DNA of 64,000 nucleotides, from the NCBI GenBank assembly GCA_026419785.1, contig JAODTK010005643.1, positions 1 to 64,000 on the forward strand, read 5' to 3'. Under the pieces are notes generated by a model. It was not told the origin of the DNA. It did no database searches and saw nothing but the letters and a program-made list of their open reading frames with translations. The translations under genes and the position numbers were made by a program. The stretch is from Sclerodactyla briareus. Taxonomy: Eukaryota; Echinodermata; Holothuroidea; Dendrochirotida; Sclerodactylidae. This document shows, one piece after another, positions 1 to 23,797 of this stretch; positions within the stretch are counted from its first letter, which is position 1; the number at the start of each line of letters is the position of its first letter.

Positions 1-1960
1 GAAAATGTGGTCGTATGACAGACCCCCAGATCGCGGAGAGCGACCTTCGTGCGTTTACAGGCAGTAACTGACATCCAAAAAATTGGGGATTAATGGACCA
101 CATGTTTTTTTTTTCATTTCGCGACAAACAATATTCGCACCCAAGGTAAATAAGAGTAAAAACTGAATATAATAGATAAAACTGGAAAATGTTATATAAG
201 GCCCTACAAAAATAAGAATAGCACATACGTATAGTAGGAGGCCCGAACATAGGACCATTGAGGGATTGCGAAAAAAAATACGTAATGACAAAAAAATCAG
301 TTGAAACATACAAAATGAATGGGTGATGTGTGCCCGCAGTAACGTGACGAAGGTGTTCTTTGCTAAAACCATAATCAGGGTATCAACATCTAGTACCAAA
401 TCTCCAGCAAAGGAAAGTTGCTCACGGGAATCTCAATTGCCAGTAGACTGGAGCATTAGGCGTCATTCAGTCGAATAAACATTGACGGTACCAGTTACCG
501 CTATTGTCGGACCAACAGACAACGTCAGGAATTTGCTAGCAGGGGTTCCTATCTCCATGTTATGATGTGGTGGGAGGACTGTGTTAGCCGACGATCTTCA
601 ATTACGTTTTGCAATTCAGAGAGTGGGTTCAGATGTTACGTTACATCGAACCATAGACAATATATTGTGAACACCTGACCAGCAGGCAAGTTAAAATGAA
701 AAAAAAAAAAACAATCAATGAGATGTCGGGACTGCCGGGACTCGAGTACGTAACATATCTGAACGCAGTGTGGGCATGCTGCGCTACTCTCAGTGGGACA
801 ACAAAAAGTTGTGTACCCGTTACTGTCCACTTTAGTAGCAGAGTAATATGAGCTTGAATATTAATCCGCCGAAAAGGTTATCCGTCAAAAAATAGTCCAT
901 TAATATTTATTGGGGGTACATCTGTGATTTGTGGGAAGAAATACGGATTTGCTTGTGGCTCGATCTGAAGGGGTTTATTCAAGTACAAACGCCGAAAATT
1001 TCAGGGAATTGGTCCTCTTTTGGCCCCGGTTTGTAAAAATATGGACTAAAATAGGCCTCGTCGAGGGTGTGTCGGAAAATTGAGTCGAAAACACAACACT
1101 ACAAAAGACACCCTGGCAATTACTAGCTCAAAAATCTGCCGCCGGTCATGGTAAAACAAAAATTTTTTTCGAATTGCAAAGTCGTTGGAATCGATAGACT
1201 CTCCGCTTACAGCAGTGTATGGCCGATATTCATAGGTAAAAACTTCTGGGAAACTGATGGCTGAGAATGGACCTCATTTAGTGTGTAATGTCAATGGGGA
1301 GATTAATGGTGCGTTGCCACCTCTAGGCCTATCGACTCCGGCAGCCCACAGATGCTCACTAACATTGTGAGAGTCAAAGAAGACTTCCCGTGAAAGCGGT
1401 CATAGTTCTTCCCCGTGATTACCCAGCCAATAGTCAGACAGTGCTACGATGGTCGAGAGTGAGTCTATCACGGGCTAAATCGCGGGGGGGTGCGGGGGAT
1501 GTTCCCCCCCCTTTTCGAGGTGGGGGGGGGTGCCTGTACAAACCAATCCCCCCCCCCCCAGTTTTGTAGTCCCAATCATTATTTTTGACAAGATATTCAT
1601 TCATAATTAACCAAATTTCCTCCCCTTTTATTAACAACGTAAATATTTGTGAGGTGAGGCGACCAACTGAGATGCTGAGCTCAGTCAACGGCAGTTACCC
1701 AACACCATGAAACTGTCATTTTTTACCTGACCGTCCAAACGTACTCCCTAATCTGTTCGGGGGTCTGTTTCCGAAGGTAAAGGCTCTACTCTAGCTTCTG
1801 CTCGTGTGCCCGTTGTCGTCCAGTGAATGTGAGGGCAGTTTTTCAACGCCCTGAAAGCTGAAAACAATGGTTTTGAGGAGTATCATGGTCAGAGGCGCTT
1901 AAACGCATTTGCTGTGTGTACCGTGGCACCACAACCTACTAGACGGGGGTTACAAACTAA
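1..1960. other. Unassigned noncoding stretch
   Basis: No gene, conserved domain or recognisable element was seen. Open frames are short and of poor composition. The one notable structure is a cluster of G and C runs at about 1482-1560, where alternating runs of 7 to 12 G or C could fold back on each other. Confidence 0.5.
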
Positions 1961-1964
1961 CCCT

Positions 1965-2397
1965 ACAACACAATCACGTTTCAAAAAACATTTTCACAAA
2001 TGTTTTGAAAATGTTTTTGTTGAATAACATGATTTCGGAAATGTTTAAACGTTTTACAAACGTTTTTAATAAAACGTTTTTGGAACTTCTAATTTTTTTT
2101 TAAAAATTGCTCCATAAACCTTTAGCGACAAAACATTTACTCCAAACAGGTTAGGTTGAGCTCGTGATGTCGAAGTTTTGTTTGATTATCGCTTCGCTTC
2201 CTTGTCCGCTGTTACTCATAAATATCAAATAAAACAAAATGTTACTAAAAAAACATTTTCTCAAAACGTTTTGTAAACCGTTTCATAAACCTTTTTTGCA
2301 AACATCATTTACTCAACAAAAAACCGTTTTTCAGAAACATTGGCGAAACATTTCATAATGTTTTGTAAACGTTTTAAAACGTTTGGTGATTGCTGGG
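1965..2397. mobile_element. MITE-like element rich in AAACGTTTT/AAACATTTT
   Basis: The segment is packed with short inverted words such as AACGTTTT, AAACATTT and GTTTTGTAAACG, and its right end reads GGTGATTGCTGGGAATT. The same word set and a CTGGG-type end occur at 8492-8768 and 62930-63067, so this is a dispersed non-autonomous family. No coding capacity. The left edge is approximate because no clear terminal inverted repeat was found there. Confidence 0.55.
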
Positions 2398-3920
2398 AAT
2401 TCGAACTGGCCGAAACATTTAGATCGGGCTCGGAGACGAGACGAAATGTATTTGAACGATTTTAAAACTGGAGCTCCATCACACGGCCCATAAGCGCCCA
2501 GTAACTACTACTTGATCGTCCTATCACTTTATTGGTATGTAATTTGGCTGTAGACTGACTGTCGGTGAGTCTGCTTGCCCTCATTAACATAACGGTTTAT
2601 GTTGTCTTATACAATATTAGTTCTTGCGTCATTTTAACTGATCTAATGTTATACTGTTATATATGGCTTTCAAAGATGCAACAATTCTCTTTAACAATCC
2701 ACAAATCGTAGGTAATATATTCATTCTTGAAAGTATAAAACACAGCTGAAAAAACCCTCAAGTGCCGGTTCCGGGCGGCTGGGAGTTGTGGAAAAGGAAA
2801 AATTATTGTACGCTCCGCGCCAACCTATGGGTTTCGCCCGCTTAGATATCATCTAGCAATCATCCCCCCCCACTTCAAAACAAAAATCTACGACGGCCCC
2901 TGGATCTATGAATGCGTTCCTGTGGAAAGCGCCATTTTCTTCTTTCGCGGGTTGCTCAGACTCGGAACGCGGTATCAGTCGAAGCCGGGGGCATATTGAC
3001 GGTGCTGGCCCTATTCTATCTACGCGGCTTTTCACAGGGAATTCCCTCATGGCGACTGTTCACCATGCAGTCATGTGTAGAATATGTACCATATTAGTCC
3101 GTTCGCGACATACGAGTCATTTTTTCCATAAAAACAAAAGCCAACAAGATGTTCAGCTAAGGTCGCATATTTATATTGCTACAGTATATGACTTATAATT
3201 TTTTTTTTACAGTTTTGCCGCATACATTGGCTTAACAACACTGATCTGTCCACACGCTAGTGAAAAATTGTGACACTTATCGTGATGAGAGATCCGCGGT
3301 GGTATGCTACACTCCTTTTCCAGCAGAAGTACTCAGATTTTACGGTTCACATGTTCTCGTGGGATAAACCACCGGGTTGTTAATCAGTAGAATTATTACA
3401 AATAAGTCTACACCTCCGACACCAATCCGGTGGATCGAAGTCGATCGCGATATGTTGCCGTTGCATCGTCATATTAATACCGAATTAAGTCATCTACAAC
3501 GCTGGTTTTAAAAATGATTTTGAGTTACCCAATTGGCAGGTTAACCAGCAATGGCGCAGCTGCATGCTCAGGCAGTGACCAATGTCTGTGTGAATACGGT
3601 CACCCTATATATAAACACTGACAGCAAATCTGTTGAGAAGGCCGTTGAAATGGAGTAGCGGAAATTTGTTGTTCGTCTGTTTATTCTTTATTGCTTCCAT
3701 GACATTGTCAGGCTGTCCCAATCAAAAAAGGGAGGAGAGTGATACGTCACATAGAAAGATTAAAGTAGAGGAAAACGGAACATGGGCCTAATTAGGATGG
3801 TACTATGGGTGGCTTAGAGAGGTTTTTGAGAGTGGTGATTTTCCCAATTGGACATAAGGCCTAGATACATTTTTGAAGGTTTTGAAACAGTAGCAGCCCT
3901 ACGTGGGGAAGCCTGCACAT
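2398..3920. other. Unassigned noncoding stretch
   Basis: No gene or repeat family recognised. Short open frames at 2853-3198 overlap on both strands and have no domain-like content. Confidence 0.45.
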
Positions 3921-3923
3921 AGT

Positions 3924-3975
3924 GGAGGCGGGAGGGGGGGGGGTGGCGGGGGGCGGGGGGGGGGGGTGGTTTCAT
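3924..3975 (+). repeat. G-rich tract, quadruplex-capable
   Basis: More than four runs of at least four G occur within about 50 bases, separated by single A, C or T-containing spacers. This pattern can form G-quadruplexes. It lies just outside the left edge of the large inverted duplication. No function is implied. Confidence 0.6.
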
Positions 3976-4154
3976 GCCGCTTTTTTTTACACTACCGCAA
4001 ACTTACCCCAACTAGGTTGTGAATTTCAATGATGATAGTAATGTTTGCCATCTTCCCCCGCCACTCTCACTAAAATGTTAAGACGCTGCCCCTGCCAACT
4101 GGGTGTTATATCTAAGCACGGGTTGTAGACGTAATCGCCCCAGCTTACCCGGCA

Positions 4155-4215
4155 CTCGGTGTTGTGTGTGTTGTGTGTGTGCATGTGTGTGTAGGTGTGT
4201 GCGTGGTGTGGCGTC
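4155..4215 (+). repeat. (TG)n microsatellite
   Basis: Imperfect TG/GTGT tract followed by GCGTGGTGTGGCGTCAAATT. It resembles the TG-plus-CTCTCGTTAG repeat seen at 38190 and 63860, but the conserved CTCTCGTTAG part is not present here, so membership of that family is uncertain. Confidence 0.5.
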
Positions 4216-5070
4216 AAATTAGTTTCTAAAATCAGTGTGCGATTGATCAACTGTTGAGGAGGAAATGTATCCCTACCCCCTACCCCCTCTCAGGATTGTC
4301 CTCCCATGGGCATATTTGATCAGTGCATTTCAAGTCAAGTGAAAGTTAGGGGAAGTTTTCTGTAGTTCATTTCACAGCGCATTTTGGATAAAAAGGAAAA
4401 CAGCCATGGGGACCCTAAAAGCCTTGTAATATCAAATAGGTCAGTAATATTGCCCATAAAGTTCAACTGGACTTCCTGGAAGTTCAAGTAAGTTGAACCA
4501 AGTTGAAACCAAGTTTTCATCCCTTGGGAATTTCATTTGGGACACTGTTTTCCTCAGACGGGTGTGGGGGGGGGGGGGGGGGTCTGGTTAATTAAATGAA
4601 AAGGGTCGCTACATAGAGAGATAGATCCTGTATGATAAAGAGTGGCGCGCCTAGCTGGAGGCAATCATTTGAAGAAGGCAATGAATTAATATGGTAACTG
4701 CTTCTTCCCGCCCCCTCACCCTTCGCGCTCCTTTTACCCCCTGCCTATACGTCAGTTCAGTATTTTAGAGCAGGGTCGTACATTCTCCATAGTGGTATAA
4801 CTCTCGAAGAAGATGGGAGAGCGATTAGAGGTGGGGAACGAAAAGCGGGGTGAGGAAGTTTCAGTGCTATAAGCTATTGAGGTAGCATATGACGATATGG
4901 TAATCCTAACACCGTAATTACTGGTTGGTGTCAATGACGTCACTAGGCCAGGACGTTCTAGCAGGCTCGGACAGTTGCCTTGACAGCCAAATCTACCAAA
5001 TGAAAATTAAACAATATAACATGCTGAAGGGATTTCGTCATCAATAGATAACTAGTGTTCGGGAATATTA

Positions 5071-5316
5071 ATGGTTTGGGGCTATGTCCGCCGGCTTCGC
5101 CGCCGCTGCTGCCTTCTCCAACGCCGAGAAACTTTAGGCGTTAGCGCAAAAAACTCTTCAACGCTTTATCCGCATGGCCGATCTGAAACTTGCTACACAT
5201 GTCCGACACTAGTGAAATCTTGGAAGTTGGTCGAAAGTGGGCATGTCTGCTGCCCGACCTTTGCAAGTGATGCAAAAACACAAAGTTCGTCCTATTTACA
5301 CGAAACTTGGGAGTGA
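5071..5316 (+). repeat. Dispersed noncoding repeat with a CACTAGTG...GAAACTTGCTACACATG core
   Basis: The segment is open on the plus strand for 81 codons, but its counterpart in the right arm (about 19430-19665, opposite strand) and a third related stretch at 16290-16440 do not keep one frame. The shared words (ACTAGTG, a GGACCATGTGTA-like block, CCGCCGGCTTCGCCGCC) point to a repeat family rather than a gene. Confidence 0.5.
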
Positions 5317-7299
5317 GGACATAAGGGAAAAAAAAGACGGTGATTCCGAGGTAATCAGAGGTTAAATTGTGTATGTTTTTTTTTTTTTTTTTTTTTTTTT
5401 CACAGACTTAGCCCGAATTACGTGAAGCTTATAGTGGGACAAACGTTGGTCCTAAAAAACTTATGAAGGTCATTCAAGGTCCACAGGAGGTAATTCGCCA
5501 ATCTCATTTTTAAACTTCGAGAACAAAATGGAACTCAGAAAACTAAGTGTGGGAAAGAGAGTGGGTCCTAAACAACAGAAATGTGATTTCAAACTCAGCA
5601 AGGTAAAGATGAAAATGATAATGTGCCTTCTCGGAACGAGGTACACAAAGGTAAATTCTGCGGGGTATACACGTCGGCCGTTTACCCGCTGCACAGTCTT
5701 GTTCAATATGGGTCCTTTCACGCCATCATTGTCTGGATGGGGATATAGATTATAAGTCTTAGAGCAAAACACGACAATCTCCGCCGGCCTGTAGATATCA
5801 GTAGACTTTACTTACCCGTACCGTCCATGCATGTGGGAGACAGGGGAATGTACTCGTGGTAGCATGCCCGGAATCCTCGCCACTAATGAAACCTGCAGTT
5901 ACTAAAACACAATCATGAACCTTTCACTCGATCAATTCCGAACCAACCATGCATGGTTGGGACGAACGAATTTCAGTGGAACTTGTTCCTACTGTAACCC
6001 GTGCTTTTATATGTCAACAAGGACGCAAGTATGCGTAGTGATGCATTGTCATTTCATGAGTAATAATCATCTTATGTGACAAAAGGAGACTTCAAAATCA
6101 CCTAATCAGCAAGTATAGCAGAATAATTAACTTTCCAACACCCAATGTCAGGTGTAGTCAGAATCATTGACCCAATTGTAGAAAAAATTGATCAAATTCT
6201 GTTTTCCAATTGCTAGCGAATATCATTCGTGGTTGGATAGTATGCAGAAGATTTCGGGATGCACACTGAACAACAGAGCACAGCACAAAGACATAAGAGG
6301 ACACTTAGTGAAGGAATCTACAGTTGCCAACCTAATCTTGATAATGTTACATTTTGACAACCGACAAAGAAAACAATCATCAATGAAAGCATGCGATGAC
6401 ACACAAATACAGAGCGAGGGGCAGGTTTCAAAGGAGATGGAGAGGGAGCAAAGTGCCGACAGGCGAACATATTCTCTCCCCATCTCATTTTGCTTTCTTC
6501 CAAGATTCTATTGAGGATTTTCTGAACTATTACAACCGTAAGCTACCCGATCAGGTTTGCAACCAAATTCAAACAAATTAATTGTCAGTGGTGGGGAGGG
6601 GGATTTGTTGAATTGAAGTGGGGGATTGGCTTCATTGATGCTCCCTCCTCCGTCTAGGCTCCTACCACCTTCCAATTAGTATGGGACGTTGTACACGAAG
6701 GTTTGGCAGTGATGCAGCTGGTGTCACAACCAAGTTAATAGGACTAAGTGGTGTGGCTATAGGTTACAGCCCCGACCATATGGGGCAATGTTTCCTAAAT
6801 CGGCAGTCAGTGCGGAAATACCTTGTTCAGTTCCTACTTTACTTCGGTTCCTTCCATATATATTTAAACGAAAGATCTTCTGCATTTCTCTTTTCAAGGT
6901 AGAAGCACAGCTACTGTCTGTACCATACCCCCCCCCCCCAAAAAAAAAAAAAATCTGCTGGAAGACATTTGCTAAACATACTAAGTCGAATTAACGATAG
7001 GGGTCTGCGGGTACATGCAAAGAGATGTGCACCAAAGTGTTATTATAAATACGATCATAATCTATTCATCTCAGCAAATAACATTCAAGCACGTGATCAC
7101 ACAAATCTTATAATAAAACGATTCTCGTACATCGCCACCAAAAAGTGGAATAAATGGATAAGGAGTATATTCAAGAATGACAGGAAATATGTACCATTTT
7201 GATTAATCACTCTCGGAATTATCTGAAGGATTTTCTATTGAAATCATACAAGTTACTGATTATTTAATTTACCTATTAGAAAATAAATTGCACTTTTAA

Positions 7300-7725
7300 T
7301 GTGTCGAAAAGTTGGGACCGAAGATGACGGTGATTCAAAGTCACCGGAGGTCAATTTGTGTTTTGCAAAATACAGAGCTAGCCAATTCACACAAAACTTG
7401 GTGGTTGAGAAGAAAAGTTTGTGCCGAAAAACAATGACGGTTGATTTAATGTGCTAAATTTGTATATCGTTTTTCAGATTTTTCAACTGTGTCGGATTTG
7501 AACGAACTTGGTGGATGTGGACTGTTGTCAATCCCAAACACCATGACGATCAGTTCAATGGCACGGGAGGTCGAATTTGCATTTTTTTTTAAAAAAAATG
7601 TATGCACTTTTCTAACTCTAATTTAATCTAACTTGGAGAATGTGGACATTGGTCCTGAACAACAGGTAGAGAATTCGAAGTACACCGGAGTTCAAGGATT
7701 ATAATTTAATTTGCTTTATTTTTAT
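7300..7725. repeat. Degenerate ~110-130 bp tandem repeats with AACTTGGTGG and CACCGGAGGTCAA words
   Basis: Several successive units share the order: ACTTGGTGG, a few bases, TGTGGAC or equivalent, a GACGGTGATT-like block, then CACCGGAGGTCAA. The same words appear in the right arm at 16000-16260 and 19200-19460, in the left arm at 5260-5470, and singly near 31360-31440. Sequences with this ACTTGGTGG style are common as noncoding repeats in marine invertebrate genomes. No reading frame is conserved. Confidence 0.55.
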
Positions 7726-8491
7726 GTAAATGGACAGAGGTCCACAAAGGTCATTCTGCGGGGATACCCGGTTTACCCGCCTACAATCTAAGTGATGGAG
7801 AGACAAATGCCGAAAAACCAACGGGTGGGGGCATCGATGCCAACATCCGTATGAAGGTTCACGTGATTGACGTTTGGAACTACATATAGTGTGGAGGCGG
7901 GACAAAAACAATTCAGACACAAAACAAAACACGGAAACAGGAAACAATCGTGAAAATGACCACAGTTTATGATCACTCACGCCGATCCATTTTTAATCAA
8001 AACGCATGAAAAATGCACACATTCTCCGCGACAGTGATGTTCAAGCAAATTCCCTAGATGCGGGCAACCTCTTACCCAACTGGAAGGGTAATTATGGGCA
8101 GCGGAATCACCTCTAAAAATTAGAGGTTATGGTAGGAATGAAGGAAAAGGGGAGAAATTGTAAGGAATAAACATGATCAGTTTTTGGAATTTATTGTCAA
8201 TTCAGTGGTGTTGCTCATCTGCCAATAGCCCGAGAAGTGCCGTGACCTGCGATTTTTTTTTTTTTTTATGGGGAGGGGGGTCTGCGAACGAAAACTTTTC
8301 TTCAATGCTACGCTTGCGTCAGCTTAGATGGTATAAACACATATGCCCCCCCTACCCAATATTAACACAAGTCGCCGCCCCTGTATTGACGACGATGTCA
8401 CAGTTTTAGCAAATCAGTGCGGTGTACTATGATTTCAAAATACGGACCAAGGTAGTGAAATTAGGCCAAGGGGCTGATGGAACATGTAATT

Positions 8492-8768
8492 CCCAGGCAA
8501 ACACAAATTAACTTTGTTGAAACGTTTGCAAAAATGTTTCGTCTAATGTTTCCAAAACATTATTTTGTGGGGTAATAATTATGTTATAAGACAATTTTTG
8601 GCAACAATTTATCGTTATAACAATATTATAACATTATTTAAACGTTGAAAAAAAGATGTTTCGAACATTGAGAATGTATACAAAGTTCACTAACACCAAT
8701 TAAAGTTATGAAAACATTTTTGGAAAGCCAGTTTCAAAATGTTAGGAAAACGTTTTGCGTTTACTGGG
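8492..8768. mobile_element. MITE inserted in the left arm (277 bp)
   Basis: Left end CCCAGGCAAACACAAA and right end TTTTGCGTTTACTGGG form imperfect terminal inverted repeats. The interior is rich in AAACGTTT and AAACATT words, as in the copies at 1965-2397 and 62930-63067. The matching place in the right arm, near 15111-15118 on the opposite strand, lacks the element: flanks ACATGTAATT and TTGCGATATAAATGG join there as ACATGTAACTGCGATTATAAATGG-like sequence. That empty site shows the element is a discrete insertion and came after the arms arose. Superfamily not determined. Confidence 0.8.
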
Positions 8769-9417
8769 TTGCGATATAAATGGCTAAATATGCGAACTTG
8801 GAATGAATGAAGAAGGCAGATGGAATGAATGAAAGGTGACTACATGGTAGATGTATGTATAAAATGTCTCTAGATTGATTATTTTTCTCATCAAATTAGA
8901 AATTGCGTGACATTGGATACATAGTCGAAGCCGGTTGAAGCAGCTCAAAAAAACACGGCAGTGCCTTTTCCGGCCATCTGGAGGTGATCTTAAAATGTTA
9001 ACAAAAGGTACGATACGCGCACCAATGGTGGCGCTCCGCTCAGTCATAGAAGATCGTATCACAACCCCCCAAAAGCGCGAAAAAAATATACGCCACTGGA
9101 TGGGGGGGGGGGGAGGATGCCACACGAAAAAACCCGCCTGTCGTCAGAGGTAATCGGTAGGGGGGGGGGGGACACTCGCATTGTCTCAGAAAGTGAGACA
9201 CTTCATGAAGACGTATGTGTTAATGTGTCCCCAAAATATATACGGACATGGTTTCAATGAATTTATATAGATCTCTGCAAAAATAATTTGAAGGTTCATA
9301 TTTGAAAGCGGGACTCGCGTCTCGCAGACTCGCGGCCTTCTTTACGTCGCAGAGTCCGTGCTGTCTGTTCAATGAAAGTCAGCCTTCATGAATGATGTGC
9401 AATGTGTATGCACAGAG

Positions 9418-9480
9418 CCTTATGGAATTATGTTGGTTTTTTAGTTAGGGCGCCTACAAGTTGTGGATAATTATAATAAT
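9418..9480 (+). repeat. Inner inverted repeat, left copy
   Basis: The stretch with TTAGGGCGCCTAC and TTGTGGATAATTATAAT recurs in reverse complement at about 13090-13155. The pair brackets the spacer of the large inverted duplication and ends in TA-rich DNA on both sides. Confidence 0.75.
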
Positions 9481-9699
9481 AATATAATAATGTATTGCGC
9501 CCACTTGGTTATATATATTACCTATAAGTTCAATGTTGCAAACTGTATGTTGTTATATTGGTGTGAAACCCACCGCAATTTGACACTAGGATACACGAAA
9601 AACCTACAAAGGGACAAAAGCCTCGAAATTTACAAGCAATCAATAGTTCCCCACTTTGCAAAGCCAGTGCACCCCCCATTGCTTCGTAAATAGATTCTG

Positions 9700-11105
9700 C
9701 TCCCACCTAAATGCAACTTAGACTTAAAGAAAGCCTTCACATTATTTTTCAAAAAACACAGTTGAATAAGCCAAATCGAGTTCCCTATTGAAACCTCTTC
9801 GCTGATCGATTGCCACTTTGCTGTCAGTTGGTCAGTGCGTAATCCGTTCAGCTTCGCTAATTCCGCCGCTAGTCGGCAGTTAGGTATTTTTTCATTACTA
9901 TCGTACACCTGAAGATGGGAAGCCAGATGTGCCTGTCGAAACGGTGTGTTGTTTTGTAATATAGTAGCATTGGAACTTTGTTGTTAAATACATATTATGC
10001 AAGATTGAACAACTGTCGTATACTTGTGTTATTGCTCACTCAATTCGTCGGAAAAGACTTTCGGAAATATATTAGTAATATCCGAAAGGTTCTTTGCCGC
10101 CTTCACATCATTTCTCAAAAACCCAGTTTAAATAAGCAAACCGAGTTCCCTATGAAACTTTCAGCTGATCGATTTCCACTTTGTTGTCCGTTGGTCAGTG
10201 CGTAATCCGTTCTGCTTCGCTAATTCCGCCGCTAGTCGGCAGTTAGGTATTTTTTCATTACTATCGTACACCTGAAGATGGGAAGCCAGATGTGCCTGTC
10301 GAAACGGTGTGTTGTTTTGTAATATAGTAGCATTGGAACTTTGTTGTTAAATACATATTATGCAAGATTGAACAACTGTCGTATACTTGTGTTATTGCTC
10401 ACTCAATTCGTCGGAAAAGACTTTCGGAAATATATTAGTAATATCCGAAAGGTTCTTTGCCGCCTTCACATCATTTCTCAAAAACCCAGTTTAAATAAGC
10501 AAACCGAGTTCCCTATGAAACTTTCAGCTGATCGATTTCCACTTTGTTGTCCGTTGGTCAGTGCGTAATCCGTTCTGCTTCAGTAATCCGCCGCTATCGG
10601 CAGTTAAGTAGATTGTCATACTATCGTACACTGAAGATGGAGCTGTGCCTTCGAAACGTTGTGGTGTTTGTAATATAGTAGATTGGAACGTGTTGTAAAA
10701 ATACATATTATGCTAAGATTGAAAACTGTCGTATACGTTTTGTTATTGCTGCACTCACTTCGGCGGAAAAGCCCTTCGGAAATAGATATATATCCGAAGG
10801 TCCTTGTCCGATCAATCATTCTCCAAAACCCAGTTTAAATAAGCAAATCGAGTTTCCCACCTATTGGAAACTTTAAGCTGATCGTTTCCACTTTGCTGTC
10901 CGTTGGTCAGTGCGTAATCATGTTTGCTTCGCTAATCCGCCGCTGCGGCAGTTAGTATAGTTGGCATTACTTCGACACCTGAAGATGGAAGCTGTGCCTT
11001 TCGACACGTTGTGTTGTTTTGTAATTTTTTTTTAACTAGTAGCATGGGAACTTGTTGTAAAACATATTATGTAAGATCGAAAACTGTCGTATATTTGTGT
11101 TATGC
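9700..11105 (+). repeat. Tandem array of ~360 bp units, retrozyme- or pLTR-like
   Basis: The word CATATTATG recurs at 9991, 10354, 10704 and 11063, giving periods of 363, 350 and 359 bases. Units 1 and 2 are almost identical over a full period, while units 3 and 4 carry many small gaps. Each unit holds CCTGAAGATGG followed about 20 bases later by a TCGAAACG-type block, and a TTCCTATTGAAAC / CTGATCG / GTTGGTCAGTGCGTAATC block. Such short tandem units next to a Penelope-like element resemble Penelope pseudo-LTRs or metazoan retrozymes, which carry hammerhead ribozymes. Open frames of 75 codons at 9978 and 10341 are only the repeat read twice and are not genes. Confidence 0.7.
9890..9960 (+). 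ncRNA. Possible degenerate hammerhead core in unit 1 of the array
   Basis: CTGAAGA at 9909-9915 matches the CUGANGA half of the hammerhead core and GAAA at 9938-9941 the other half. TACTAT before and ATAGTA after could form a six-pair stem I. Stem II is weak in this copy; in units 3 and 4 (CTGAAGA at 10631 and 10979) GAAG or GGAG opposite CUUC is possible. Unit 2 repeats the motif at 10272. The cleavage site and stem III are not convincing, so activity is doubtful. Confidence 0.3.
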
Positions 11106-11222
11106 ATATATATATATAATATATATATTATATATAGCTATATAGATTATATAGATATTTATATATATATATAATATATATATATTAGATATATAAGGAT
11201 ATATATATATTATATATATTAA
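11106..11222. repeat. TA-rich microsatellite
   Basis: Almost pure A and T with ATATATAT runs. It joins the end of the ~360 bp array to the 3' side of the Penelope-like element. A similar block lies at 12952-13085 on the other side of that element. Confidence 0.85.
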
Positions 11223-11350
11223 TAGCCGAGAGGCAAAAAACAACGTAAAAAACAATGCTACCTAAATAATGGCTGGATCTCGAATGAGATGCGAAATAGC
11301 GATTGAGTAGGAAAAATGTGAGGTACAACAGCCGATATGTTTTGGATGCA

Positions 11351-11380
11351 GAGCTTCGGACAATACTAGTCCTTCGTCAG
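11351..11380 (-). ncRNA. Hammerhead-like core at the Penelope 3' region
   Basis: On the minus strand CTGACGA fits CUGANGA, then A, then GGAC with a seven-base loop and GTCC form a perfect four-pair stem II, followed by GAAG where GAAA is expected. Penelope-like elements often carry hammerhead ribozymes in their pseudo-LTRs. The last core base is altered and stems I and III were not resolved, so it is probably an inactive copy. Confidence 0.45.
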
Positions 11381-11624
11381 TGCAGTGACACAGAAGTAAT
11401 AACTCGAAAGGAGAAGACGGCTGCGACTTTATAGGCATAGGAACAATGGTTGGGGTGAGGCTAATTAGTGGTTCGCTGATTGACAGGGATAAATCCCTTG
11501 GGGATTATGTCCCGGGAGAGGCCAATTCGCGCCGCCTCAGGATTGGGTCGCGTGGTCGATGCAATCCATCTCAGGGTTTTCAATGAGTGGACTGACCATG
11601 TTGAAATGATTAGCAACCGGCTGC

Positions 11625-11936
11625 TCATTTTTGGGTCTTGATGGCTGATCGGTGTTGGGTCATTCGCTCACTTAAGTGTGTTTTTGTTTCCCCGATGTAC
11701 TGAACTCCGCGGAGATTACTGTAAAGTAGGTAGACCAGGTTCTCGAGACGCAACATATCCCTGTTGAATCGGAAAATGAGGGATGTCTGGAAACTTTTGA
11801 AACAAGTTGTGCGATCTACAAGTTTGCACGTTTTGCGGTTGGATGGGCAGGGGCGTTTGTTTGCGGCTCGGCTTTGCTCCGAAAATTTGGCGTTACTAGA
11901 TGTCACGCAGATTCCGAGGTCTGTGTAGGCAACCAA
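11625..11936 (-). pseudogene. GIY-YIG endonuclease remnant of the Penelope-like element
   Basis: A 103-codon minus-strand frame contains LVYLLYSNLRGVQYIGET followed by LSERMTQHRSAI. This fits the GIY-YIG nuclease core: the VYLLY stretch stands for GIY, QYIGET for YIG plus the following Glu-Thr, and the Arg-His spacing matches. In Penelope-like elements this domain follows the RT and nicks target DNA. The usual cysteines before the YIG are replaced by Ser and Arg. The frame ends soon after SAIKTQK, so the C-terminal part of the nuclease is lost or shifted. Confidence 0.85.
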
Positions 11937-12009
11937 CCGGGGGTTCCGGGAACACGGCTTTTAGGCTTCCGGACTTTGAGGATGGGCAAATGCTTGTAAA
12001 TGAGAGTGG

Positions 12010-12950
12010 CTAATGGATGGGAGGGCGGATGTATTCACAGACGAGTGGTACTCTGGAGTTGGATTGACGAGTTTTGTACGTCAGGTTCATTCGCGGAGTC
12101 TTTCGAGCCTTTTCAATGCCCTCTTCAATGGAACTACGGAAATACTGACCTCTTTGGAGGATGTTTTGAAGTGCGTTGGCACGGGACTCGAAATCAGCAT
12201 CGAGGAGCCAATGCGTTTCAGACAAGGCTTGACCTGTAGGGAATGTCTTCGTGCAGTGGGGTGGGTGACAATGCTAGGGAGTAGGAAATTGTGCTTGTCC
12301 GTTGGTTTTGTGAACAAGTTGTTTTGAGGACCCGGTCCAACGGCACATGGTGCAAGGAGTGGATCTGTCGCTTGAAAATTCTGCAGTGATTTGATAGAGG
12401 GTGGAATGGTTGATTTGTTAGATGAACGAGGTAAGTTTTATGCACCGTGGGTCAAATGCAGAAGATGTCATCAATATAACGACCAAACAAGTGGCCTCAG
12501 GGCCTGTCCAGAGAAGAATTTCTCTTCAAGTTTTCCATGAAGAGTTGCGAAACGAAGGAGCCATTTAGTGCCATTGCTGTGGCCGGGACCTGCAGGTAAG
12601 GTTGAGCACCAAAAACAAAATTGTTGCAAAGTTAGGAAATGAGGTTGCAATTAGTCCGCCAAGATCGGCTTGGCTGGGGTCTGGCCCAGGAGTTGGTTCG
12701 AAGCCGAAGTACAGGCTTTCTATAACTTCCGCTGGAGGGGATATTGGTATACAGAGAAGAAGGTCAGGTTGCCAGCAAGTGCCAGGGGGGAGATCTTGAT
12801 CTTCGATTTATTGATGAAGCTGTGGTGTCCTGACGGAGACGGGAGGGGACGGACGAGGGGCTGAATCAGGAGGTCCACGAATTTGGAAATTTTCTTAGCA
12901 GTGCCGTGGCCAGAAATGATGGGTCTGCCAGGGTTGCATCCTTGTGACAT
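12010..12950 (-). pseudogene. Penelope-type reverse transcriptase fragments
   Basis: Minus-strand pieces in three frames carry known Penelope RT signatures: NPGRPIISGHG with KISKFVD and QPLV at 12950-12850; SLYTNIP near 12720; TKWLLRF/KMAPSFRNS near 12560; YIDDIF, the catalytic Tyr-x-Asp-Asp, at about 12450-12470; LFTKPTDKHNFLLP at about 12320-12280; and a DFESRANALQNILQRG segment near 12190-12150. Penelope RTs are related to telomerase and copy element RNA at the target nick. The catalytic aspartates are still readable, but frameshifts and stops separate the blocks. Over 200 residues expected before the first block are absent. Confidence 0.88.
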
Positions 12951-12951
12951 A

Positions 12952-13085
12952 AATATATACTATATAGTATATATAGATATAATATATTATATATAATATT
13001 ATATATATATATATAATATATAATATATATATATATCTAATAATAGATTAGAGCTAATATATATATATATATATAAGTTATATAT
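12952..13085. repeat. TA-rich microsatellite
   Basis: Mixed ATATAT and TAATAT tracts that start directly upstream of the truncated Penelope RT and run into the inner inverted repeat at about 13090. Partner of the block at 11106-11222. Confidence 0.85.
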
Positions 13086-13159
13086 TATATATAATTATTA
13101 TAATTTATCCACAATTAGTAGGCGCCCTAACCAAAAGAAATTCCATAAGGCCTGGCAAT

Positions 13160-14480
13160 ATAAAATAAAATGCGATAAAAGGACAGAAATTACAGGTCGA
13201 ACGCTTAATTAAATGCAGACTACGTGTTAACAGAGTGCAGCACAGTTTTTACCCGTTGCAGACGATTATGAGCGTATTTGGCAAACCAGAATGTGAAGTA
13301 TTACCATAGTCCAAACGTGATGTCATTATCGACTGGACCAACAATCGACAAGCATCATCGGGGAATTAAATTCCCAATTTACCAAGTGTTGCGAAAATGA
13401 TAATTATGACAGGGAATTTAACTACAGCCACACACTGATCCTGCCATAGTGAGCTGGGGCATAAAAAATTGATTGCCAAATTAATGACCTCAATTCCCAC
13501 CACTGTATACCACTGCTAACCCAAAATATACGCAAGCTTGCATGCGGGGACAAATAATATAGGTGAAGCAACCGAAATACAACGGCCCCAGTATGTGCGA
13601 GTGTATTAAAACACGAGGAGTGCAACAGCCTCTCAACAAGGGTTTGAGGGACATTTTCTTGTCCAGGATAGATAGGAGCTAGGCTGATGCCAAAAAGTTG
13701 CATGTTATATATGCATTGCATGTAGACAAACAAGTTACAAGAACATGACGTATTATATGGTTTCAATATTCTACCTCCCAGCGTCCACGTCAGTATGGGG
13801 GCGCTATCATTAGATTCCCGGGCCGCGAGTTTCTTGTCCTAAGAACCCTAGGGCAAATGTGGACAAATAACCAAGAAGCAGAATATATCTTGAACTCAGC
13901 CTCAGTTTCTTAAGCTCCGCCTCTGTAGAATTCAAGCTGATAGATGATTTCTCTGCTGGTGCATGATTCGGGGATTCCTGCTTTATCTGTATGAGTACAC
14001 AATGATGACTTGGTAACTGTTTGCGATAACTGGAGGGCTATAAAACCGACTTCAAGAGACTACGAACTATGTAACACTACAATGTGATACAGTGTTGGAT
14101 AAAGGGACGAATAGCTTGGAATAAGACGTTGGGATTGTATAATCATTTCATTTTGCTGTGGTCACACCAGTTTAAAAGTGATATTCATTGGAACTAAGAA
14201 AGCAGAGGTGTAATCTGTGGTCAAATTTCAAATACTGAAAAAATTGTGTGGCTTCTCGCAATGAGTACATGTACAACACTATTATTGTATGAGGTTTTAT
14301 GAAGCCAACAGGTTAATAGAGCTGAACACTACGAAATTCTGAAACCCAGAAAATGTTACAGCATGGGGGCATTACAACCCACCTTCGATTGGGGGAAATG
14401 TTTTGGGGCCTTTCGTTTTTTTTTCATTTTGAACCCGTGGCAGAATTGCATGATGCGCTTTACTTCCTTTCTACATCAGG
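13160..14480. other. Right-arm segment without left-arm partner
   Basis: Left arm passes from the GATGTGCAATG block at about 9400 to the inner inverted repeat at 9418, whereas the right arm has about 1.3 kb between the equivalent points. No domain, terminal repeat or known family was recognised. It may be an insertion here or a deletion on the left. Confidence 0.55.
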
Positions 14481-16261
14481 CACAAAGCAAAATGGCACAT
14501 CATTCATTGAAGCTGACTTTCATGACAGAACCAGCACTGACTCTGTGAAGTAGAACGAGAGGCCGCGATGGCTGCGAGACGATGTCACGCTCTCAAATAT
14601 GACCTCAATTATTTGCAGAGATCTATAATAAATTTCATTTAAAAACCATGGTCCGTATATATTAGTTGGGGACACATAACATTACGTCTTCATGACGTGT
14701 CTTCACGTTTGAGACAATGCGGTTTCACCCTACAGACTCTGACGACAGGCAGGGTTTTTCGTGTTCAACTCCCCCCCCCCCAATCCAGTGGCGTATATTG
14801 ATTCGCGGTTTGGGGGGGGGGCGGTTACTGATACGAACACTATCTAAGCGGAGCGCCACCATGGTTTGCGCGTAGCGTTACCTTTTTAAGACATTGCAAG
14901 GACACCAGATGGCCGGAAAAGCACGGCCGTGTGTGTTGACGCTCATTCAACCCGGCTTCGAAATATGTATCTCATGTCAGCAATTTCTCGATTTGATGAG
15001 AAAATCAATAATCAATCTATAGAATTTTTAATACAACATCTACCAGTATGCCTGTTCACATTCCATCGCCTTATCATTCATTCCAAATCCATATTAAGCC
15101 ATTTATAATCGCAGTTACATGTGTCCATCAGCACATGGCTTAACATTTCAACAACTTGTCTCGTAATTTGAAAGCATAGTACACCGCAATGATTTGCTAA
15201 AACTGTGACCTCGTCGTCAATACAGGGGCGGCGATTTGTGTTGAAATTTGGGGAGGGGGGCAGATGTGTTAGTACCATCTAAGCTGAGCGCCAGGCGTGC
15301 ATTGAAGAGGAAGTTCGTTTCGCGACAACCCTACCATAAAAGAAAAAAAAAACGAGGCAAGGCACTTTTGGCCGGGAGCAACATCACGGAAATTGACAAT
15401 AAATTTCAAAAAAATGATCAAGTTTATTCCTTACCATTCTGCATCTTTGCCTTCATTCCTACCATATACCTCTAATTTTTGAGGTATTCCTGCGGCCCAT
15501 AGAGGACCCTTCCAGTTGGTAAAGGTTGCATCTAGGAATTTGTTGAACATCACTGTCGCGGAGACGTGTGCATTTTTTCAGGAGTTTGATTACAAAGGGA
15601 TCGAGTGAGTGAGCAGAAAATGTGGGTCATTTTCACATTTGTTTCCGTGTTTTTGGTTGGTTTTGTGTCTTCATTGTCCTTTCCCGCCTCCACACTATAT
15701 GTAGTGCCATAACGGAAATCACGTGAACCTTCCAGACTGTGTGCACGAGCCCCCACCCAGTTGTTTTTTCGGCGTATTGCTTCCATCAATTAGATGTTGG
15801 GCGGGTAATCGGTATCCCCGCAGAAATGCCCTTTGGTGGACCTTGTTTAGAGAAAGCAAATTAAATTATATCCATTTGAACTCTGGTGACATTGAAATGC
15901 TCTACTTGTTTGTTCAGGACCAATGTCCACATTCTCCAATTAGTTAAATTTGATTTAGAACAGTGCATGCATTATGCAAATTCACCGTCCCGTGATCCAG
16001 GAAATGAATCTTCTGGTGTTTGGGATTGACAACCAAAGTCCACATCCACAAGTTTCGTTCAAATCCGAACACAGTTGGAAAAATCGTGGGGGAGAACGAT
16101 ACAATTTTAGCCTACTAAAATCACCGTCATTTTTCGCACAAACTTTTCTTTCAACCACCAAGTTTTGTGTGAATCGGTCTAGCTCTGTATTTTCAAAACA
16201 AAATTGACCTCCGGTGACTTGAATCACCGTCATCTTCGGACCGACTTTGTCGCCCCCACCG

Positions 16262-17385
16262 AGTTTTCGTATAAAATCCTTTGAATACGAGGGCAGCAGA
16301 CTTAAGTAAAGCCCATTTCCGAACTCCTCGATATTTCACTAGTACGGACCTGTGTACCAAATTTCGTGTCATCGCTAGAGTGTGGAGAGTTTACTTGCCG
16401 CTAACAGCTATTTCCGTAGGCGGTGCCGGAGACGGAGACTTGCCGCGGCTACATTCCCAAAAACCTTCTATCCCGACACTTGCCCTGTTGCAGGGATATA
16501 ATTAAGAGCAGCAGCACGTCAGGATGTAAAGCAGTCTGTTGTAAACAATAAGGTTTAGAAGTAAATAACTCTAGCCAATTGTTATGTGCAATGTTAGGAA
16601 AATGCCAGTTGGATCCAGCATTGGGTGAGGGGGGGGGCCAGCATTGTATCGTGTCTCCAAACCGAAATCTCCCTTTTAGGGCTTGCCATTTGTTTCACCG
16701 CGCACTTGTTATTGATCAAGAAGCATATTTTGCTGACGAAGGTATGTGGCATAGGGCTACTATATTAACACATGTAACGGAAAAACAGAAAACAGCGCGC
16801 GCAGCGCGAAATTTTTCGCATTTTTTCTCCTCAACATAAAATTTAGGCAATCGGATTAGAATATGTGATAATCCTTTGTGTTATGACTGTGCTGTACCTT
16901 TATAGCTTACCCTCATTTTATTCATTTATCTTGGGAGATCATGCCTAATCATTGGAGGGGGGGGGGGGGGGGAGGGGGGAAGATCACATAGGCCATCCCC
17001 CAACATCAAACATTGGGGGGATGTATCCTGCCTGCGCGTATACGTCAATGCCCCCATCCCACGGAGAACCACACCATTGAGAACGACCCCAAGGGCCGCC
17101 AACCCAGAGCTGAAGGTCAGGGGTCCCGACCCCAACCTTGATGTGGACCCCAACTTCACCAAAAAAGTGATCGCTAAATGCAACGGAAAACATGCCCTAA
17201 TACTTCGAGAGGCAAATGCCGAATGCGTCCTTAGGGAATTACATATCTCCCAAGACCCCCCACCCATGCTGTTGCTGACTGTTGGACCCCTCCCCAAAAC
17301 TTTCAATCGCGTGGTTGCGCCCTTGAAGGACTAAGGTAAGGATTAAGACCATCTTGTGATACAGTCCTTTCTCCATTACACGACA
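16262..17385. other. Right-arm segment of ~1.1 kb without left-arm partner
   Basis: Homology to the left arm stops after CATCTTCGGACCGACTT (16245) and resumes near GTGTCAATTTATTTC (17410), where the left arm continues without a gap at 7310-7290. The segment holds a 16290-16440 block like that at 5150-5230, a G-run at 16953-16980, and an open frame at 17077-17334 that looks like low-complexity chance coding. No terminal inverted repeat was established. Confidence 0.55.
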
Positions 17386-20054
17386 GACTTTAACGACAAC
17401 GATTGACAGTGTCAATTTATTTCTATATGGGATAATTAAATACATCAAGTAAAGCTGTATGATTTTAATATGAAAATGCATCAGATAATATCAAAGAGTG
17501 ATTTTTTCAAAATGGTTAATCTTTCCTGTCATCTGATATAGCTCTCTTATCCCGTTTATTATATTCCAATTTTTTTTGTGGCGATTTACGAGATATACGA
17601 TTTTAAAAGAATTGTGGCCATCAACAGTGACCTGAATGTTATTTGCTGAAGAGGAAATTAGATTATGAACGTGGGGATATATATATATATACTTGGTGAA
17701 CATCTCTGTGCATGTACGCCGCAGGTCCCATATCGTATCGATTAGTAAGTATGGTTATCAAATGTCTTCCAGCTAATTTTTTTTTTTTGGGGGGGGGGGT
17801 ATGGTACAAGACAGAGCTGTGCTTCTACCTGAAAAAGAGGAAATGCAGAAGATATTTACGTTTACATATATATGGAAGGAAACCCGAAGTAAAGTAGGAA
17901 ATAACACGGGTATGTCCGAACGGACTGCCGATTTAGGCAAACATGCCCCATATGGTCTGGATGTAACCTAACCACACTCAATTGTCTATGAATTGTGTGA
18001 AAAACATCTGCTCACCCAGCACCTTAGGGTACAAACTTCCAATTACAAGTGGAAAGGATGGTAGAGTTAGACGGAGGGGAAAAAAATGATAATGAAGCTA
18101 AATCCCCCAACTTCACACAAATCCCACTCTCCACCTACAATTCATTTGTCTGATTTTGTTGAAGAGCCTGATCGGGTATGCTTTTAAGTGTGAAATATTC
18201 AGAAAATCCTCAACTAGAAAATATGAGAGAAAAATAAGATGGGAGAGGAAGGATTCGCCTGTCGGGCACTTTGCTCCCTCCCACCTCAGGTGAAAAACCG
18301 CCCTCATCTGTTGGTGTGTGTGATCATCGTGATATCATTGATGAATTGTTCTTTGTCGGTTGCCAAACTGTGCCAACATTAGCAAGATTAAGTGGAAAAA
18401 CTGTAGATTCTCTCACTAAAGTGTCTCGTAGGTCTCTGTGTGCTTTGGTGTTAGGGATCTCTGAAATCTTCCGCCAATACTATCAAAACCACAAAGGATA
18501 TTGCTAGCATTTGAAAACAAGAAGGATATCTTTTCTTACATTGGGTCAATGGATATCTACACATGACATGGTGGGTGGCAAGTTAATTATTCTGCTATAC
18601 TTGCTGATTATCCAGATTTTAGGTGAATTTGAAAGCCTCTGGTGTTACATAAGATGGATATTACTCATGAAATGACAATGATAACGACCGATAATTGCGT
18701 CTTGTGACATATAAAAGCAGCCGGGGGTTACAAGTAGGACAAGTCCACATGAAGAATCGTCCAACCATGCATGGGTGGTCGAATGATCGAGTGAAAGGTT
18801 CATATTGTGTTTAGTACTGCATTCTTATTGGGCGAGGGATTCACGGGGAATGCTCCCTAAGAGAGTAGCATCCCGGTCTCCCACAGGCATGACTGTACGG
18901 GTAAGGAAAGTCTACTGATATCTACCATGAACGGCGGAGATTGTCGTGTTTTGGCCGCTAAGACTTATATCTATATCATCCCAGGCAATGATGGCGTGAA
19001 AGGACCCCTATTGAACAAGGCCATGATGCAAGCGGGGGGTAAAACGCCGACGTGTATACCCGCAGGATTACCTTGTGTACTCGTTCCGAGAAGGCACATT
19101 AATCGTGTTCACTTACCTTTGCTGATTTTGAAATCACATTTCTGTTGTTTAGGACCAACTCTAGTCACACTTTTAGTTTTCTGAGTTTCCATTTTTTCTC
19201 GAAGTTAGAAAAATGAATGAATGGGCGAATTTGACCTCCTGTGGACCTCGAAAATGGACCTTCATGTTTTTAGGGACCAACGGTTTTCCCACATAAAGCT
19301 TCAAGTAATTCGGCTAACTCTGTGAAAAAAAAACGAAGAAGAAAAAAAAACAACGCAAATTTAACCTCTGATTACCTCGGAATCACCGTCATTTTTGTTC
19401 CCTTAAGGTCCTCACTCTCACCAATTTTTCGTGTCAATAGGACGAACTTTTTGTGTTTTTGCAATAAAACTTGCAAAAAGGGCTGGCCAGCAGACATGCC
19501 CACTTTCGAACACTTCCAAGATTCACTAGTGCGGACCATGTGTAGCAAGTTTCAGATCGCCATTCGGGATAAAGCCGTTGAAGAGTTTTTTGGCGCTACG
19601 CCTCAGTTTCCGGCGTTTGGAGAAGGCAGCACACGGCGGCGAAGCCGGCGGACATAGTCCCAAACCAGATATATTCCCGAACATAGTTATAATTAGGGAT
19701 GAAAGGAATACCTTCAGGCATGGGATTTATTGTTAATTATTCAGTGGTAGAGTTGAAGCTGTCAGGCAACTGTCGAGCCTGCTATAATGTCTGACTAGTG
19801 GACGTCATGACACACAGAACAGTAATTACTGTGTTAGGATGTGACCAATAGCGTCCATATGATACCCCTCAATAGCTTATAGCACTGAAACTTCTCCCCC
19901 CGCTTTTCGTTCCCCACCTCTAATCGTCTCCCATTTATTCGAGGAGTTATACATATGGAGATGTACGACCCTGCTCTAAAATACTGAATGACGTAGCATG
20001 GGGGGTAATAAGGAGCGAGAAGGGAGGGGGCGGGAGACGCAGTTACTACAAAGT

Positions 20055-20205
20055 GGAGGGGGGGGGGGCGGAGAAGAGCAGTACACATCGTGGAGGGGGG
20101 GGGCGGGAGAAGCAGTACACATGTGGAGGGGTGGGGGGGGGGCGGAGAAGCAGTACACAGTGTGGAGGGGGGGGGGGCGGAGAAAGAGAAGCAGTACATA
20201 TGCAA
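20055..20205 (+). repeat. G-rich ~40 bp minisatellite, right arm only
   Basis: About four units of GGAGAAGCAGTACACA plus GTGGAGGGGGGGGG. The flanks GCAGTTAC and ATATGCAATTATT are continuous in the left arm near 4690, so the array grew or was inserted in the right arm alone. The unit resembles the neighbouring arm sequence GCGGGAGACGCAGTTACTAC, which suggests local amplification. Runs of 9 to 12 G make it quadruplex-capable and also prone to sequencing error. Open frames across it are repeat artefacts. Confidence 0.8.
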
Positions 20206-20640
20206 TTATTCATCCGTCACATATTGCCTCAGGAGTCATCTTTATTTCATGCAGATCGTATCTGCATATGTTCCGCAGGCGACCGTAACTATATCTTAAT
20301 AACAGATTCCTCCCCCACCATGTGAGAAAAAGTTTTGTCCCAAATGGGAATTCCCAACTGGCTGAACTGGTTTTTCAACTGTTTTTCTATCAGCGATGCC
20401 ATCATAACGATTCCAGAGAAGTCCAGTTGAACTGTTCAGTTGATGGCATATTACTGATTCATTTGCCATATTACAAGGCATTAGGGTCCCCCTTGCTAGT
20501 TTCATCTTCATATCAACATTCATGCGGTTTAAATGACTAAATAAATTCCCAAACTTTCACTGACTTGAAATGCCACTGATCAAATATGCCCATGGGAGGA
20601 CAATCCTGAGAGGGGAAAGGGGGTAGGGGAGGTTGGGATT

Positions 20641-20959: not shown

Positions 20960-21557
20960 CTTCAATCATCTACCTGACGAGTTTTAGGTTGAAAGCAGGA
21001 TGAATTATAGGGAGGCTGAAATATTAGCTGTAGAACCTGAATGAGTCATTGCAACTTTCGTTCATACGACTTTCCGTTACGGAGTTACAGTCCTTGAAGT
21101 ATGGACATGTGTATTGCGCAAGATCGAAAAGCATCCCATCATGCAATAATAAATCATGTCATTCGTGGCACATCCCTGCAAACAATTTCATTTTCCATTG
21201 AAATTCACACATTATTTTCACTTCGAAAAACATTAGTCTATGGGAGGAGAGGATTGCTGTAGTGGGTGGTAGGCGTTAATGGTTACTTCGGTGAGAGAAA
21301 GACAACAGAACCTCTGCGAAATATTGACTTATTCAACGAATTGAAACAATGAATACATGACATAACTTCTAGGGTTGTCAAGCGTATTGCGCAATGGGAT
21401 TCTCCCCAATTTCCCTGCATATTGGACCAAACTTTGAAGGCCAATAACTCCACATAGGAATCTCGTATTGAAATGGGGTTTGGACCTTTAGATACAGTTC
21501 CCATCCTCAACGATATAACCTTTGTTGTATCCAAGCCTGCAGTTGTTCTTTGAGGAA
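20960..21557 (+). mobile_element. Dispersed ~600 bp element, copy 1 (MITE-like)
   Basis: Collinear over its length with 54938-55525. Shared landmarks in order: TTCCGTTACGGAGTTA, ATCGAAAAGCATCCCATCAT, ACATCCCTGCAAACA, TTAGTCTATGGGA, TTGCTGTAGTGG, AGAAAGACAACAGAAC, ATTGACTTATTCAAC, and a TATACAGTT block near the right end. The right end GCTTGGATACAACAAAGG (minus) with CTGCAG and CTCAAAGAACA matches the left end of the second copy, so the family has terminal inverted repeats. No conserved coding frame. Confidence 0.75.
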
Positions 21558-21559
21558 AC

Positions 21560-23120
21560 AGTTCTTGCGAGCGATGAAATCGCTTGCATAGGAGTCGGTC
21601 TCAGAATTTGTGTAGTCTTGTGAAGTTGCAATGGCCATGTTACAATCGGCAAATCTAAGATACGAATTCTTCGGTATTCAACTCGAGAAGGAATACGTGA
21701 TTAGTTGAATGTACACTGTTTTGAATAAATTATCATGAGAAGCAGTTTTCGTTCAAATTAGGATCAGGTTTGTTAGAAACGCCTCCGTTGAGAAACTGAG
21801 GTGAAAACCCGGAAATTATCATTTAGTGTGGGTGAATGTAACCTTCAATATGAATTTATATTGCGCCGAAGAAGCAGCATTGTTTCGTTGTAAATACTTG
21901 CTAGACTCCAATTCCAAACTTCGCGTTTCCTCGGTAATACATGCTCACTCGCTAGTGAATTTGTTTCTCGCATTAAATGGTAACGATTTCGGAACATTTC
22001 TTCCTACAGTTTGGGCGATAATGTATTTTTTAACTGCAACGACGTTGCGCAATTTTTTTTTATAGGTATGATATGATCTTTTTCTTTTCCATAACTGAAG
22101 TGACAGTGTCGTATTCCCGTTGACGACTGCAACGAAATTAGACCTGTGTTTTCCTCAGTACTGAATAAAAAGCTATTAAACTAGCATTCTTCAACTGTTT
22201 ATTCCATATCTCGTGACTGTTCTCTCCTCCAATATGAGGTTTCAATTGGTCTACGTGTTTATTTCATGAATTTTTTTTTTTTTTTATGCAATCTTGATGC
22301 CTCACATCTGTTTTATGGATAGAATATACTTGACAGGCAGTTACGTCGCCACTCTCATTTTGCCACTTTGAAAAGTTGTCAGCTCAGTTAAGTGGCTTTG
22401 ATGTTTATGTAGACAGGAAAATAATGACAAATCTCTAATATCTCCCTATGTTCCGAACGATGTCGCCGCATCTGGACCCCATGACCCATTGACTCAGTGG
22501 GAACACTCTGTGCTGGTGCTGGGAAATCACACAATTTCCAATCATTTCGGTTTCCATTACGGACTAATGTATTCCATTATCATATTCTAATATGGTCCGC
22601 ATGAACTTCTAGCATCCCCCTGGTTTGTCGGTGAAGCCTTAAACGGTGACCACGGCAGAACACTAGTCCTAGTTTATCCACCTTAGATGCAATTTATGGA
22701 TGAGGGGAAATCAGATTTCCAGAATGTTGGAACATAGAAACATGTACGGTTTTCGAAACATTTGCTAACAAATAACCAAAATGCTATGTGATAGATCGAC
22801 CTACATTAGAGTGATACAGTGATTGAGAAAGTTTTACCCAGGGACATATGGTGCTTCACCTCAGATCTGACCTTCAGCATTTGAAGGAATCAGCTGCTCT
22901 TAGTCAGTAATGGTGGCCAATTGTTGAGAGAACCAGTTTCATGTCCAATCAATATGGCACCATATCATGCTCTTCAGGAAGGTACTGACATCACAATTGT
23001 CTACTTTTTTGATTGGAGTTCCTGTATGCATGTTATTTAACCTTGTCATCATTATCAATCGCATTTTCAGTTTTTATTTATCTATATGTCTATCCATCCA
23101 TGTCTATCTACGTATCTATA
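21560..23120. other. Unassigned noncoding stretch
   Basis: No domain-bearing frame or repeat family was recognised. A T-rich region near 23060-23126 ends in TATATCAG and could act as polypyrimidine tract and acceptor for the coiled-coil array that follows. Confidence 0.4.
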
Positions 23121-23126
23121 TCAGGC

Positions 23127-23797
23127 TCACAACGAAACTAAGGAGAAGCTGGCCACCACCAGTCAGCAGCTAAGAGCAACCAACCAATCCCTGCAGGAAT
23201 CCAGGAGGGCCACAACAAAACTGAGGAGAAGTGGCCACCAGCCAGTTCAGCAGATAAGAACAAACAACCAATTTCTGCAGGAATCAGGAGGCCACAACAA
23301 AACGAGGAGAGCTGGCACCACAAGCAGCGCCTAGAAAACCAACCATTTCTGCAGGAATCCAGGAGGGCCCAACCCACAAACAAAAATGAGAGAGTGGCCA
23401 ACCACCAGTCATAGCTAAGAACAACCAACAATTTCTGCGGACTCCAGGAGGGCCCACACGAAACTAAGAGAAGCTGGTCCCCACCAGTCAGCAGCTAGAA
23501 AACCAACCAATCTTCTGCAGGGAATCAGGAGGGCCCACAAACAAAAACTGCTGAAGAAGCTGGACCACCACCAGTCACAGAAGCTAGGCACACAACCAAT
23601 TATGCAGAAATTCAGGGGGCCCACAACGAAAATAAGGGGAAGCTGGCCACACCAGTCAGCAGATAAGAATACCAAACCAGTTACTGCGGGGTCAGAGGAG
23701 AACCCAAGCCACCACCGTCAGCAGTTAGAAACAGCCCCTGGCTGAGGAATCAGAGAGCTCAGAGAACAACTGAAAACTACCAGTCAGTCTTGCAGGT
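23127..23797 (+). pseudogene. 84 bp tandem array encoding 28-residue coiled-coil repeats
   Basis: The first unit begins right after TATATCAG and reads AHNETKEKLATTSQQL, then RATNQSLQESRR: 28 residues, exactly four heptads, rich in Glu, Lys, Gln and spaced Leu, as expected for a coiled coil. Further units start near 23209, 23290, 23366, 23451, 23532 and 23617, with a partial last unit. From the second unit on, one- and two-base gaps break the frame, so as written it is not translatable throughout. It ends with ELREQLKTTSQS-like codons and TTGCAG|GTGTGG, a possible donor. It may be an exon of the ZU5 gene downstream, a separate coiled-coil gene, or an exon damaged by sequencing error in a repeat. 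Protein family unknown. Confidence 0.55.

Follow-up and report, generated by a model that had tools for sequence, protein, structure and literature searches.

The first 64,000 bases (the window) of a 155,859-base contig, C2886, in the 319-Mb, 3171-contig genome of Sclerodactyla briareus hold two long inverted arms that differ, at face value, by about 20%, and the question is whether this difference records great age, sequencing error or a fault of assembly. The first-pass annotation had offered three origins: an old inverted duplication, a giant foldback-type element or a chimeric assembly of two diverged copies. We consider it probable that the palindrome is a young inverted segmental duplication whose sequence, at this contig end, was left uncorrected. 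Read in this way, the duplication is of an ordinary kind, and the great age it seems to have is an artefact.

The inverted arrangement itself is plain. Self-BLAST resolves it into five colinear blocks, the left arm corresponding to the reverse complement of the right (Table 1), and because the control, the right arm reversed without complementing, gave no match at E 1e-5, the inverted match is far beyond chance. The annotated picture of imperfect arms around a 3.6-kb spacer is borne out, and the outer edges placed at 4268 and 20640 are correct to within about 12 bases. The spacer as a whole is non-palindromic and the outer flanks are unrelated, positions 1-4267 matching the remainder of the window in one simple repeat only, and this left flank has no other full copy among the 40 scored of 911 genome candidates. 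With 4268-8268 of the left arm as the query, the two arms themselves were the only lengthy matches among the 40 scored of 3074 genome candidates, the others listed being shorter than 1 kb with 68-92% identity (the one at 92% spanning 36 bases). The arm segment thus appears to be low-copy in the genome; it is repeat-rich and apparently non-coding. The earlier remark that the arms hold no gene for mobility agrees with the 10 arm open reading frames scanned, in which no Pfam family rose above its cut-off and two weak matches both fell below theirs, in sequence whose noise breaks the frames.

Table 1. Features of the inverted arms, the spacer and the contig start, in window coordinates.
Feature	Position	Strand	Basis and remarks
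Contig start; tested pieces read like uncorrected long reads	1..20640	.	noise comparison
Left arm, 5.2 kb	4271..9495	+	uncorrected sequence; without 1.1 kb and 1.35 kb of the right arm; holds the 0.28-kb TIR element
Inverted block 1	4271-4481/20628-20411		self-BLAST; 81.4% identity
Inverted block 2	4694-7312/20046-17387		self-BLAST; 80.9% identity
Inverted block 3	7305-8489/16252-15115		self-BLAST; 81.4% identity
Inverted block 4	8770-9403/15113-14492		self-BLAST; 79.8% identity
Inverted block 5, short	9439-9495/13136-13080		self-BLAST; 87.9% identity
TIR element, MITE-like, ends CCCAG...CTGGG	8491..8768	.	left arm only
Spacer separating the arms, 3.6 kb	9495..13080	.	self-BLAST
363-bp tandem array	9733..11103	.	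TRF; exact-repeat comparison
Retroelement fragment, multi-copy	11232..12949	-	Pfam; AT repeats flank both sides; frames broken
Right arm, 7.5 kb, longer version	13080..20628	-	dispersed 2.25-kb element in full; array of 38-bp units near 20022-20200
Right-arm-only block, 1.35 kb	13136..14492	.	self-BLAST
Dispersed non-coding repeat, full length	14782..17028	-	right arm; comparison with other loci
Right-arm-only block, 1.1 kb	16252..17387	.	self-BLAST and comparison with other repeat loci

The nature of the small differences between the arms carries most of the argument. Across 4403 aligned positions we counted 357 substitutions, 94 of them transitions and 263 transversions (ti/tv 0.36), and 419 indel events, 323 of a single base, such that indels outnumber substitutions. 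Transitions make up 26%, fewer than the one third expected under random substitution (binomial p 0.005). Four clean copies (L004-L007), on other contigs, of a repeat found in both arms, when compared among themselves, gave ti/tv of 1.05-1.89 and indel-to-substitution ratios of 0.28-0.52, with 23-32 indels per pair, ranges from which a further copy, L008, noisier itself, is excluded. The same four copies showed 54-69 indels against the left arm and 46-56 against the right; with counts higher against either arm, both arms therefore carry extra indels. In a six-row alignment of the arms and these copies, changes common to both arms numbered 25 transitions to 24 transversions and those private to one of the four outside copies 155 to 151, while changes private to one arm, summed over both arms, came to 70 and 137; the last exceed the pairwise count (66 substitutions) and include alignment noise, and only their spectrum was used. 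The arm-to-arm ratio of 94:263 departs from the 155:151 of the outside copies (Fisher p 1.6e-10, the counts coming from different alignment methods) and from the 27:28 of a dispersed repeat pair inside the window (p 0.0012). Dispersed repeats with a similar or higher level of substitution (L004-L007, the pairs 21110/55077 and 30443/50653, and the right flank) show ti/tv close to 1 or higher, a level that certain tandem arrays of the window fail to reach. Because the ti/tv and indel spectrum departs in this manner from clean repeat copies, the arm difference is mostly uncorrected read error. With a transition fraction of 0.20 for error (the lowest between retroelement copies, ti/tv 0.25) and 0.51 for real change, the real divergence of the arms is about 1.7%, and it is zero if error is random; judged by the substitution spectrum, the true divergence is probably 0-2% and the identity of the arms about 98-100%.

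The noise is not confined to the arms. It stops no more than about 370 bases past the right arm edge, since 20995-21551 and 21562-22443 are clean (ti/tv 1.08 and 1.07; indel/substitution 0.31 and 0.41), and farther right the dispersed repeats 21110/55077 and 30443/50653 and an array at 46.9-47.5 kb look natural; one tandem-rich piece to the right of the palindrome, 24496-25457, is noisy (ti/tv 0.62, indel/substitution 0.72). Left of the palindrome, three pieces within 1957-3603, each with one comparator, gave indel/substitution ratios of 0.81-1.14, and at 1-703 the window copy has 7.5 indels per 100 against 5.3 among nine copies of its family. Near-identity of the arms is therefore not the whole reason for the noise. 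The nine copies of the 1-703 repeat and seven copies of the spacer retroelement are noisy among themselves as well, so the noise in those families is no peculiarity of this contig end and these two comparisons carry little weight; retroelement pairs involving one copy, L010, have ti/tv near 1. The overall pattern would fit an assembly of clean contigs with gaps filled and ends extended by raw long reads. The contig begins within a high-copy dispersed repeat (1-703), and such repeats are the usual break points for contigs.

The large differences between the arms tell another part of the history. Besides the blocks of 1.1 and 1.35 kb found in the right arm only, self-BLAST gives 0.28 kb (8489-8770) confined to the left arm. 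A tandem repeat of 38 bp runs to several units on the right (TRF 4.4 copies), with a single unit seen on the left. The left-arm counterpart of the full-length dispersed repeat is shortened by the probable 1.1-kb deletion and interrupted by the TIR element. We compared nine other loci of this repeat (L004-L008 and L027-L030). Seven of them (L004-L008, L028 and L029) match all or part of 16252-17028, the inner 0.78 kb missing from the left arm; two stop short of the TIR insertion site, and in all seven that cross it along the right arm (L004, L005, L006, L008, L027, L028 and L029) the site is empty. Because the other repeat loci follow the right-arm state, it is the left arm that, on this comparison, gained the TIR element and that probably lost the 1.1 kb. 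The 1.35-kb block has 18 short matches elsewhere with 68-80% identity and is otherwise unique; here, too, loss from the left arm is likely. The TIR family is dispersed, with at least 39 other matches among the 40 scored of 109 candidates. The best copy (L051) shows the inverted ends of the family, CCCAGCAAACAC...GTGTTTGCTGGG, clearly. Of eight copies inspected out of 13 other loci, three (L051, L053 and L062) have both ends as in the window, four have one end or altered ends and one (L055) has neither; no clear target-site duplication emerged for the element. By these features the arms are two distinct DNA sequences.

Taken together, a segment would have been duplicated in inverted orientation through template switching or fold-back of an ordinary sort, and the left arm would later have acquired the TIR element, lost 1.1 kb and probably also lost 1.35 kb. 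The contig start, about 1-20.7 kb, would be long-read sequence left uncorrected, and correction may have failed in the arms owing to their near-identity. No function would be required to account for the inverted duplication. The locus is like other inverted segmental duplications in having two nearby inverted copies of a segment that later acquired indels and insertions and whose outer flanks are unrelated; it is unlike them in that its sequence is uncorrected. Against a young duplication stand the several structural differences, a lot for arms with near-zero base divergence, and the likely seam in the spacer, a sign of software stitching there.

This seam gives the main rival its footing. The assembler may have run together, head-to-head through the repeat-filled spacer, a pair of near-identical dispersed copies of one segment or its two haplotypes; we hold this to be rather unlikely. 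If two facing copies were chimerically joined, they would be near-identical and not, as the annotation had proposed, diverged. Within the 363-bp array, 9851-10218 recurs exactly as 10214-10581, a 368-bp direct repeat inside noisy sequence whose neighbouring array copies differ; simple repeats aside, no other exact direct repeat in the window is longer than 81 bases. The stretch 9851-10581 is probably an assembly seam at which the same read sequence was used twice at a stitch, judging by the exactness of this repeat. The array, it suggests, is one unit too long, and the continuity of the spacer seems to rest on software, perhaps on one read. A false join is favoured as well by a spacer made largely of repeats (the 363-bp array and AT tracts), by a retroelement present at many loci and by the position at a contig start that reads as uncorrected. 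On the other hand, both exact 368-bp copies share oddities that are missing from array copies c3 and c4 and from the copy on contig C1327, a hint that a single read supplied both sides of the seam, so that the local continuity may be real. The absence of any further full-length left flank among the candidates scored also speaks against a false join, and a haplotype join would lead one to expect outer flanks that match each other, which within the window they do not.

The retroelement beside the array has many genomic copies among the 40 scored of 2176 candidates, and its copy on C1327 has AT tracts on both sides too. It holds a partial GIY-YIG domain (PF01541, E 1e-4, 22.9 bits against a cut-off of 22.6, 32 of 78 profile positions) and, by eye only, reverse-transcriptase-like words. 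We take it to be Penelope-like: the partial GIY-YIG domain, the many dispersed copies and the adjoining AT repeats resemble Penelope-like retroelements with a GIY-YIG endonuclease, whereas the frames are broken here and those tested matched no reverse-transcriptase Pfam family. The six reading frames of other copies gave no Pfam match. Hammerhead ribozymes are common in Penelope-like elements and retrozymes; one was sought in the 363-bp unit by running Rfam on the spacer, with no match up to E 1, and at two other loci Rfam gave six matches, all below gathering scores and none of them a hammerhead. One further locus (L032, C2333:10500-20499), on a 25-kb contig, carries three tandem copies of the retroelement and part of a fourth at a spacing of about 3.2 kb.

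A more eventful history is a duplication that is very young, possibly still polymorphic, with gene conversion keeping the arms near-identical while large indels accumulate in one of them and with the Penelope-like retroelement and the tandem array at its centre; we give this a small chance.

Quite improbable, in our judgement, is a single molecule read twice in opposite directions, through a missed adapter or an amplification fold-back, with no genomic duplication at all. A missed adapter is one route by which a molecule comes to be read in both directions. Palindromic chimeras are on record for PacBio reads from whole-genome-amplified DNA (PMC6218980), and the present arms resemble them in an inverted self-match whose differences show the raw-read error spectrum; they differ from them in the inserted dispersed element, the kilobase indels, the 3.6-kb spacer and the unmirrored flanks. 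The private TIR element, missing from the right arm, the differences of 1.1 and 1.35 kb, the spacer that is not palindromic overall and the unmirrored flanks together disfavour one molecule read twice. The annotation's statement that the palindrome is not simply such a molecule therefore survives on the strength of the private insertion and of outer flanks that do not match; most of the base changes to which it also appealed are read error and do not bear it out.

Very improbable, too, is an old inverted duplication with arms truly 20% diverged. The raw BLAST identity of four of the five blocks invites it; the deficit of transitions below random, the excess of indels over substitutions and the contrast with equally or more substituted dispersed repeats contradict it, and the proposal gives way to the low real divergence estimated above. 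More generally, near-identical duplicates in a lightly corrected assembly can seem 20% diverged and hence ancient, and ti/tv and single-base indel counts, set beside those of the genome's own repeat copies, help to separate read error from age without recourse to the reads.

The idea of a giant foldback-type element, whose inverted ends would run to kilobases, has the shape in its favour and is barely credible otherwise, as no further full copy of the left arm turned up among the 40 scored of 3074 candidates, no Pfam family passed its cut-off in the 10 arm reading frames scanned and no target-site duplication above chance was found at the outer edges (the longest word shared by the edges, five bases, was matched by 84% of 500 random pairs, though noise could hide a short one).

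Other features of the window deserve mention. At 24208-25476, two inverted arrays of 25-bp units surround a middle of about 0.3 kb, with matches on contigs C2145 and C2472, a smaller feature that looks more foldback-like than the 16-kb palindrome. The tandem arrays at 23124-23688 and 36604-37418 show read-error-like differences and are possibly gap fills. A reading frame at 45685-46056 encodes a ZU5 domain (PF00791, E 4.6e-14), which, like the repeat content, points to animal DNA; this frame and the GIY-YIG fragment give the only Pfam matches above cut-off among the 18 window reading frames tested.
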